Below are positions 4,386 to 6,461 of a DNA stretch of 64,000 nt, in pieces (the stretch's first letter is position 1; each line of letters starts with the position of its first letter). The notes beneath the pieces are model-generated. The model made no database searches. It saw only the letters and a program-made list of their open reading frames with translations, and was not told the origin of the DNA. The translations under genes and the position numbers were made by a program. Location: the NCBI RefSeq assembly GCF_011386835.1, contig NC_088797.1, positions 98,776,264 to 98,840,263 on the forward strand, written 5' to 3'. The DNA is from Chrysemys picta bellii (taxonomy: Eukaryota; Chordata; Testudines; Emydidae).

Positions 4386-5349
4386 ACTCCAGTTTTTATT
4401 AGGACATCTTGATTGATTCCACCGGATGACTGTGCTTTGGTTCATGTAGCCCTGCTACCCTTAAATGAGAATTGCAGTGAGTGAATAGATAATTTATAGA
4501 TATTTATATTTCTGTCAGTGGTGAGGATGCTATTTGGACAAGAGAGGGCAGATAGAGAACAAATAACCGGACAGCCTTGCACTTTTGCTCTAACCAATCA
4601 ATCATGGTCTAATGTTTAAATTGTAGATCTTTGAAGATGTCAGTGTGTTACTCCTGTAACTTGCCATTTAATGCACTGGCCTTTCACATCTGGATAAGTA
4701 GTTTCAAATCTCAAAGACTGCAAGGTCAATTGTAAAGGGACTAAACTGACATAGTATCTTGGAAGATATATCCATAGTAAAGTGACAGAGGGTGTGCAAA
4801 TTGCTGTGCAAGATACATTTGAGCTGCATTATAATATCTTAGGGTGACCATGTTAGGGTGACCCAAAGGCCTGGTTTACACTATGGGGTTAGGTCGAATT
4901 TAGCTGCGTTAGGTCGATTTAAAAATGACTGCGTCCGCACAACCAACCCCGTTCCGTCGACCTAAAGGGCTCTTAAAATCAACTTCTGTACTCCTCCCCG
5001 ACGAGGATAAGCGCTAAAATAGACCTTGCTGGGTCAAATTTGAGGTAGTGTGGACGCAAATCAATGGTATTGGCCTCTGGGAGCTATCCCAGAGTGCTCC
5101 ATTGTGACCGCTCTGGACAGCACTTTGAACTCCAATGCACTAGCCAGGTACACAGGAAAAGTTCCGGGAAGCTTTTTAATTTCATTTCCTGTTTGGTCAG
5201 CATGGTGAACTCAGCAGCATTCAGCAGCACAGGTGAACATGCAGTCCCCCCAGAATCGTAGGCCGTAGAATGTTTCTACGCTCCCCCTATCATCTCCGTC
5301 CCTGAGGTTATCGTAGATTAGAAGGCAAAAAAACCGCATTCACGATGAC

Positions 5350-5637
5350 ATGTTTTCCGAGCCCATGCAGTCCTCCCTCACTGATAGGACACAGCTTAAT
5401 GTATGGAGGCATTCAGTGGCAGAGGCCAGGAAAGAATTAAGTGAGCATGAAGAGCGGAGGCAGGATGCGATGCTGAGGCTAATGGGGGAGCAAACGGACA
5501 TGATGAAGCATTTGTTGGGGGAGCAAACAGACATGATGAAGCGTCTGTTGGATCCCCCGAGCTCATCGCTGGGGAGCAGGAGAGCAGAGTTGCAGGGGAG
5601 GTGGTGGAGCCATACACCATGCCCTGGATGTTGCTAG
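5350..5637 (+). pseudogene. Harbinger Myb-like accessory protein, C-terminal remnant
   Basis: A 95-codon open stretch from ATG at 5350 to TAG at 5635. It encodes a charged helical segment rich in Glu, Arg and Gln (for example [18 protein letters not shown]), likely coiled-coil, that resembles the C-terminal part of the Myb/SANT-like DNA-binding partner encoded by turtle Harbinger elements. The DNA-binding helices themselves are not visible upstream, so this is only the tail. A 33-bp tandem duplication at about 5482-5550 produces two copies of GEQTDMMK(H/R)LL. The frame then runs into sequence I cannot assign (about 5555-5680) before the DNMT3B-like segment, which is in a different frame. It is probably not functional. 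Confidence 0.5.
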
Positions 5638-5681
5638 GAGGTAGGCAGGGAAGACGTTCCCAGAACCCCCAGCCAACCTAC

Positions 5682-5970
5682 ATGTCCGACGAGTACGGGT
5701 ACCAGTCCTACTGTACCGTCTGCTGTGAAGGAAAGGAGCTGCTGCTGTGTAGCAATGCCAGCTGCTGCAGGTGCTTCTGTGTCAAAATGCTTGCAGGTCC
5801 TGGTAGGGCAAGGTACCTTGGCCAACGCAAAAGAGCAAGAGCCCTGGAGCTGTTACATGTGTCAATCACAGAAGCGCTATGGGGTGTTACAGCGCCGACC
5901 GGACTAGAATGTACGGCTGCAGGACTTCTTCACCAGCGACAAAGGACAGGAATATGATGCACCTAAAATC
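5682..5970 (+). pseudogene. DNMT3B: DNMT3B ADD-domain fragment, intronless, captured in a transposon
   Basis: The plus strand encodes [12 protein letters not shown], then [15 protein letters not shown], then after a +1 shift [25 protein letters not shown] and YGVLQRRPD, and finally [20 protein letters not shown]. This follows the PHD-like half of the ADD zinc-finger domain of the de novo DNA methyltransferase DNMT3[16 protein letters not shown] and FFTSD point to DNMT3B rather than DNMT3A. The zinc-ligand cysteines are retained. In the host protein, ADD binds unmethylated histone H3 lysine 4 and regulates the catalytic domain. The copy is broken by one extra base at about 5785-5790 and by a tryptophan codon changed to TAG at 5905-5907; it ends at TAA 5971, where the transposase remnant resumes. 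About 96 codons run without an intron, which suggests capture through a spliced transcript or joining of exons. Confidence 0.85.
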
Positions 5971-5976
5971 TAAACA

Positions 5977-6205
5977 GGCCCGCACATTTCCCAGAGTCAC
6001 TACTCTTGATAACAGAACATCAATGATTGCATACTTGGATCACAGCAGCCCCCACAGTAGACTTGCTCACAACAGCAGCGGTGACGGTGAGCTGAGTGGG
6101 CTCAATGCTTGCCGTGGTATGGCATCTGCACGGATAACCCAGGAAAAAAGGTGCAAAACGATTGTCTGCCGTTGCTTTCACGGAGGGAGGGGCGACTGAC
6201 GACAT
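5977..6205 (-). pseudogene. Harbinger transposase N-terminal remnant
   Basis: On the minus strand, residues around AAVVSKSTVGAAVIQVC (about 6030-6080) match the helix-turn-helix segment (SKSTVG followed by a small residue and QVC) that precedes the DDE core in PIF/Harbinger transposases. Continuing upstream on the plus strand, the complement of 5977-6025 in another frame reads LLSRVVTLGNVRA-like, which also fits the family. At least one frameshift and a stop separate the two parts. The DDE catalytic region is absent; the DNMT3B-like segment stands where it should continue. Opposite orientation of the two element genes is normal for Harbinger elements. Confidence 0.6.
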
Positions 6206-6461
6206 GTACCCAAAACCACCCGCAACAATGTTTTTGCCCCATCAGGCATTGGGAGCTTAACCCAGAATTCCAATGGGTGGTGGAGACTGCGGGAACTGTG
6301 GGATAGCTACCCACAGTGCACCACTCTGTAAGTTGATGCTCACCATGGTAGTGAGGACACATTCTGCTGACTTAATGCGCTTAGTGGGGACATACGCAAT
6401 CGACTGTATAAAATCGACTTCTATAACATCGACTTAATTTCATAGTGTAGACATACCCAAA

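Follow-up and report, generated by a model that had tools for sequence, protein, structure and literature searches.

The painted turtle genome holds, at many loci, copies of a Harbinger-type transposon that carry a captured piece of the DNA methyltransferase gene DNMT3B between terminal inverted repeats (TIRs), and this piece derives from spliced RNA. Taken as a whole, the data make it probable that a PIF/Harbinger-type element took up a spliced DNMT3B cDNA in an ancestor of the cryptodiran turtles, and that the cDNA has most likely been a passenger of the element. A capture of DNMT3B by such an element, proposed in a preliminary description of one copy, is thereby borne out.

Results

The copy in the window

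The window, which is the whole stretch of DNA analysed here (64,000 nucleotides of Chrysemys picta bellii, NC_088797.1, positions 98,776,264 to 98,840,263), contains one internally deleted copy of the element (Table 1). The ADD PHD half of DNMT3B, recognised in the preliminary description from the letters alone, is confirmed by profile, structure-database and turtle comparisons. Two frames of the window match the Pfam profile of the DNMT3 ADD PHD finger (PF21255) above its cut-off (2.2e-11 and 1.4e-08), and against PDB sequences the read-through segment scores 162 bits with DNMT3B and 122 bits with DNMT3A. When the two window pieces are compared separately, the DNMT3B of the painted turtle is 89.5% (38 aa) and 88.7% (62 aa) identical to them; Mauremys DNMT3B ties with it for both pieces and Rhea for the first one, whereas two bird DNMT3A proteins reach 59% (44 aa) and 45% (62 aa). 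The possibility that the segment fits another gene better is answered, for DNMT3A, in favour of DNMT3B.

The paired TIRs, the single frameshift and the TAG in place of tryptophan given in the preliminary description were all confirmed. Its bounds of 5682-5970 fall within the ADD piece (5678-5972), but the DNMT3B-derived part of the window actually consists of three pieces over 5551-5972; likewise, the approximately 96 codons that it counted as captured are present, but the capture in the family is far larger and comprises an N-terminal part, the PWWP domain and the full ADD domain.

Table 1. Features of the transposon copy in the window.
Feature	Position	Strand	Remarks
Whole element copy, internally deleted Harbinger-type transposon	4868-6458		self match 100%
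Target duplication AAA, left flank	4865-4867		AAA also at right flank
Left terminal inverted repeat	4868-4897	+	21 of 30 bases agree with right end
Element ORF, labelled "Myb-like" in the preliminary description	5317-5637	+	106 open codons; extends into capture
Additional copy of a short repeat from the 5317-5637 ORF, then joint of the 866-bp deletion	5519-5552	+	
DNMT3B N-terminal piece	5551-5608	+	96.6% to captured majority sequence; host exon near L069:2949-3139
DNMT3B PWWP tail	5607-5676	+	out of frame with ADD piece; one host exon junction crossed
DNMT3B ADD PHD half	5678-5972	+	two host exon junctions crossed; stops 17 nt into following exon
Frameshift, one extra A	5784-5787	+	inside ADD piece
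TAG replacing Trp	5905-5907	+	inside ADD piece
Transposase remnant, antisense to DNMT3B segment	5973-6180 (bounds approximate)	-	six-frame translation
Right terminal inverted repeat	6429-6458	-	pairs with left end
Target duplication AAA, right flank	6459-6461		AAA also at left flank

The window copy is about 92% identical to the majority sequence of the family over two aligned blocks (family 1-642 with window 4868-5518 and family 1510-2436 with window 5550-6458), the middle of the family sequence, approximately 866 bp (family positions 644-1509), being deleted. It is only through this deletion that the element ORF and the ADD piece adjoin in the window; in full-length copies, a minus-strand DDE piece separates the plus-strand ORF from the ADD block. 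The idea of a Myb-ADD fusion protein is rejected, since its two parts lie apart in the full-length copies, and the "Myb-like" label of the ORF is itself unproven, no Myb domain being matched in it by Pfam. The reported transposase remnant does exist on the minus strand, where it reads VGKSTVGAAVIQ...VVTLGNVRA in the family, with its frames shifted in the window, and gives no Pfam match of its own; the recognisable DDE_Tnp_4 piece is deleted in the window and found in the family majority sequence. The window copy is an internally deleted derivative with no probable product.

The element family

The genome search gave 9406 first-look candidates, 40 of which were scored, neither figure being a copy number. 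The fetched copies make up 40 distinct rows including the window, and all 40, which were picked by their likeness to the ADD segment, contain it wholly or in part. The same ends are common to 15 full-length copies and the window. For the comparison of flanks, 16 rows were considered and L012 and L020, cut short of an end, were left out; identical 3-bp flanks were observed in 9 of the 14 assessable copies, the window included, and differing ones in L009, L010, L011, L015 and L017. The family majority sequence contains, on the minus strand, the C-terminal piece of a DDE_Tnp_4 domain (Pfam, 1.2e-11, above cut-off). Short TIRs, a 3-bp target duplication and a DDE_Tnp_4-type transposase, all found in the family, are traits of PIF/Harbinger elements. 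We also take the right-hand minus-strand piece and the motif AYPLLPWLMK to resemble Harbinger transposases.

Codon 9 of the ADD segment is a tyrosine in 12 of the 40 copies and a stop in 27, and is uncovered in one. The segment bears neither stop nor indel in five copies (L026, L030, L031, L036 and L041, the last of which lacks the first codon); it is also stop-free in L011, where coverage begins at about codon 22, and in L046, where 18 bases are deleted. The preliminary description had asked whether other copies share the segment and keep its frame open, and both are the case: at least part of it is in 40 of 40, and it is free of stops and indels in 5 of 40. Most of the 40 copies read are devoid of the PWWP domain and the first ADD half. 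In L031, a frame of 227 codons stays open across the DNMT3B N-terminal and ADD pieces, because two later deletions of 251 and 205 bp, each of which breaks the frame, jointly restore it; by chance, two such deletions are expected to do so about one time in three.

The tree of the copies is star-like, with good support for 2 of its 37 inner branches, an unsettled bootstrap and a median end branch of 0.064; group labels on this tree were rejected, there being no clear clades. The evolutionary rate of turtles is reported to be roughly a third of that of humans (PMC4054807), and together with the length of the end branches this slow rate indicates that the spread of the element is old.

Several copies have peculiarities of their own. 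L039 and L040 (C13, at about 4.11 and 4.50 Mb) are near-identical, with branches of 0 and 0.012, perhaps as a result of segmental duplication and not of transposition. In a further search, 18 of the 40 scored loci match captured positions ~1-227 only, some also 255-285, and form another shortened subfamily of the capture (e.g., C25:599075, C13:25939413 and C15:3639520). DNMT3B-derived blocks are repeated within the capture in L015, L018, L027 and L037, and a repeat in several copies joins N-terminal, PWWP-tail and ADD-start pieces. In L060 (2145-3992), about 1.85 kb interrupts a long-capture copy, and captured positions 867-875 are present at either end of the interruption, which looks like another mobile element inserted with a 9-bp duplication.

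A long form with a spliced DNMT3B cDNA

With the PWWP-region DNA of L050 as query, 17 candidates were obtained and all scored; 12 of them are full element loci, 2 are partial ones and 3 are host exon pieces on C13. Ten of the twelve long copies were read fully and one partly, C1:148112782 being left out. The ten contain about 1.15 kb of DNMT3B cDNA, made of an N-terminal part, the PWWP domain and both ADD halves; the catalytic domain is absent, the capture ending just before it. The translation of the long-copy majority runs from VRPRGAAGW to PKI and a stop codon and is open except for one TGA (CGA in the host); 56 host codons are missing from it, with one residue in their place and the frame kept. 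When the single TGA of L050 is read through, PWWP, ADD_DNMT3 and PHD finger all score above the Pfam cut-offs. Today, each of the ten long copies has at least one internal stop.

The exons of the host gene on C13 (L068, L069; 14.2 kb of the gene read) served as the DNMT3B reference. The captured majority sequence overlaps 11 of these exons and runs across nine junctions without any intron; a tenth junction falls inside the 56-codon gap, and exon skipping as the source of this gap is rejected because its ends lie inside two exons and not at exon edges. The 5' end of the capture is at most 2 bp from a host exon start, and its 3' end lies 17 nt into a host coding exon, the stop being created at the joint. 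Three of the exon edges crossed are also visible in single-exon frames of birds, and the window copy still crosses three host junctions. Since nine junctions are crossed and no intron was found inside the segment, the capture came from spliced RNA, a route that the preliminary description had offered as a possibility. At L069:2479-2612, the DNMT3B genes of the painted turtle and of Terrapene have an indel after FQAG relative to the other turtles read, and at this site the captured copies keep a form near that of Chelydra.

In the family majority sequence, minus-strand transposase pieces flank the capture on both sides. The left piece corresponds to positions 102-158 of the 158 of the DDE_Tnp_4 profile and the right one has no Pfam match; positions 1-101 of the profile were not found by Pfam in this sequence. 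Given these missing positions, the capture seems to have replaced part of the transposase gene, to which it is antisense.

State at spread and subsequent decay

Over 375 codons, the captured majority sequence and the host differ by 27 silent and 22 replacement changes, 9 of the 22 being at captured positions 120-150, where a host indel is misaligned. From position 361 on, PWWP and ADD show 16 silent differences and four replacements, which are three CpG transitions (one of them the TGA) and one joint residue. So few replacements beside 16 silent changes indicate that the captured protein was host-like when the element spread. In the ADD region, the captured majority is 95.7-100% identical to four host exons.

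The decay after insertion appears about neutral. The observed over expected ratio of missense to silent changes is 1.20 in the 12 Tyr-bearing copies, 1.01 in the 27 stop-bearing copies and 1.23 in the 10 long copies, so that the dN/dS-type check recommended in the preliminary description returns values near 1 (1.0-1.2), qualified by slightly low nonsense counts in older groups. Nonsense changes numbered 6 for 9.8 expected in the Tyr-bearing group (nonsense over silent 0.62), 20 for 21.7 in the stop-bearing group and 18 for 22.4 in the long copies; nonsense over silent spans 0.62 to 1.2 across the groups, with perhaps a slight deficit in the older ones (Tyr-bearing and long copies). CpG transitions occurred at 0.228 per site, a signature of methylation on the copies; the rates of non-CpG changes were 0.028 (C>T) and 0.023 (G>A).

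Other turtles and their gene models

Protein models resembling the capture are, among the matches listed, those of Emys (P0036), Chrysemys (P0037, P0070), Trachemys (P0046), Platysternon (P0039, named monoglyceride lipase), Chelonoidis (P0080), Terrapene (P0082), Gopherus (P0119) and Chelonia mydas (P0001, P0028, P0127). The methyltransferase domain PF00145 is listed in none of nine of them (P0036, P0037, P0039, P0046, P0070, P0080, P0082, P0119 and P0127), and these nine look like misannotated transposon copies. The names that they bear are DNMT3B-like, PWWP protein, DNMT3B and even monoglyceride lipase. P0127 has the joint of the 56-codon gap (FSEPLAKRLK), which indicates that the sea turtle has the same capture, by descent or by transfer. 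P0036 has private residues in common with L061 (GQEYHVPKI, KRLKPNFCNN), and the two appear to represent a single insertion. Among the best 120 of 301 and the best 120 of 1708 matches, side-necked and softshell-line turtles contributed no captured copy. In the protein tree, the captured rows fall inside the cryptodires and form one clade weakly (66/79).

Discussion

Passenger or counter-defence

The DNMT3B fragment is most likely a passenger of a non-autonomous element, as stop-bearing copies spread, decay is approximately neutral and the copies bear the mark of methylation. The near-neutral decay and the spread of the stop-bearing group also make a lasting function of the capture unlikely. Some observations go against the passenger reading: a near-unchanged protein at the time of spread would equally follow from constraint, nonsense changes are below expectation in the Tyr-bearing and long groups, and the two frame-breaking deletions cancel each other and leave L031 open.

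We regard as unlikely that the early long element acted in counter-defence, through a PWWP-ADD decoy protein or an antisense RNA, and lost this role later. In the first variant, which taken separately is very unlikely, the early long element would have made a DNMT3B without catalytic domain, whose PWWP and ADD would occupy H3K36me and unmethylated H3K4 sites and so weaken de novo methylation of the element itself. The long-copy majority frame, open save one TGA, the three domains recovered in L050, a 379-aa product predicted in Emys (known from the protein model alone), the host-like protein at spread and nonsense changes slightly under expectation in older groups are in agreement with such a decoy, but the missense to silent ratio is about 1 in three groups and most of the copies sampled lack PWWP and have a stop. 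Moreover, DNMT3L and DNMT3B3 bind their partners through a catalytic-like domain, and this domain is absent from the capture. In human cells, according to part of a study of inactive DNMT3B isoforms, these mostly stimulated methylation and did not block it (PMC4853477).

In the second variant, even less probable, element transcripts complementary to DNMT3B mRNA would give rise to small RNAs that reduce DNMT3B, or small RNAs directed against the element would strike DNMT3B too, as a hostage. The antisense position within the transposase gene and the high identity to the host exons would suit this variant, which needs no open frame and so fits the stop-bearing group, and the rice CACTA element with miR820 acting against OsDRM2 is a precedent (PMC3459959); however, identity to the host dropped with the age of the copies, and their CpG decay shows that silencing reached them.

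Route of the capture

For the passenger reading that we favour, the following course is probable. In an ancestor of the living cryptodiran turtles, some of the transposase gene of a PIF/Harbinger-type element was lost, and spliced DNMT3B cDNA of about 1.15 kb came to occupy the gap in the opposite orientation. The gap would presumably have been filled during repair of the broken element, with a cDNA or a processed retrocopy as template, after which the transposase of other elements could have spread the capture-bearing element. Shortened forms devoid of PWWP and of the first ADD half arose by later deletions. Gap filling is likewise proposed in portions of the animal Pack-TIR survey, where multicopy forms are described as spread by transposition (Tan et al. 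2021, PMC8277862).

That a LINE inserted a processed DNMT3B retrocopy into the element, in place of a repair-type capture, is quite unlikely. A spliced piece with its 5' end so close to a host exon start would suit such an insertion, but the 3' end lies inside a coding exon and is followed by no more than five A in place of a poly(A) tail, and part of the transposase profile is lacking there. The poly(A) tail that is a LINE hallmark was not found around the captured piece, and a single copy with poly(A), which the preliminary description had named as evidence of a later retrocopy, does not correspond to a tailless segment present at many loci. That the resemblance is accidental, or that the segment is a pseudogene of the host DNMT3B with no tie to the element, is refuted by the copies: each of the 40 rows, from different loci, contains the segment, the window has its ends in common with 15 full-length copies, and PWWP is borne by 12 element loci in full and 2 in part. 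Nothing was found in favour of this reading.

Relation to known systems

Gene capture by TIR transposons, Harbinger included, is already known, as parts of two reports describe (PMC8277862, PMC2572040). Like Pack-TIR elements, the turtle element is a multicopy TIR DNA transposon with a host gene fragment; according to sections of the survey, intronless captures of multi-exon genes were excluded as a control for retroduplicates, and the turtle capture is exactly of that kind (PMC8277862). The turtle element has a host fragment between its TIRs, and this fragment, with nine junctions crossed, is an intronless copy of a multi-exon parent, which the cargo of Pack-TIR elements is not supposed to be. 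The word Harbinger is absent from the main text of that survey (PMC8277862). Turmoil-1 of C. elegans, as partly described, also belongs to the Harbinger superfamily and has a captured coding fragment with no selection on it; it differs by having rsp-2 and cpg-3 fragments in its terminal repeats, rsp-2 with an intron, and nine copies listed (PMC2572040). Unlike Turmoil-1, the turtle element has its capture inside the transposase gene, spliced, and from a silencing gene as parent.

Inactive DNMT3B isoforms and DNMT3L are host gene products that retain some or all of a methyltransferase-like domain, whereas the turtle capture ends before the methyltransferase domain. They resemble it in having the DNMT3 regulatory part without an active enzyme, as seen in part of one report (PMC4853477). 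The rice CACTA element is also a DNA transposon with sequence matching a host de novo DNA methyltransferase; it produces a small RNA with a demonstrated effect on its target, whereas the turtle element has a long coding fragment known from sequence (PMC3459959). Rodent Dnmt3c, in excerpts of its description, is a Dnmt3b duplicate tied to transposons, but arose by tandem duplication and serves the host against transposons, whereas the turtle fragment is transposon cargo (PMC5607212).

Among the matches listed from the openly licensed literature, Repbase being outside the search, no earlier report of this capture was found, and in an article on transposons misannotated as genes the words turtle and methyltransferase are absent (PMC10641963). 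As far as these searches reach, the spliced multi-exon capture of the reader half of a de novo methyltransferase by a vertebrate Harbinger-type element is new. The captured gene belongs to the machinery that silences transposons, and spliced captures of this kind were filtered from the Pack-TIR survey of animals (PMC8277862). Several turtle gene models that go by the name DNMT3B-like seem to be copies of the transposon. The turtle case documents one such capture in many copies, together with the parent gene and with long and short forms, and offers a clear test of anti-silencing by protein or RNA; if counter-defence were true, a vertebrate DNA transposon would have used a stolen methyltransferase reader half to blunt its own silencing.
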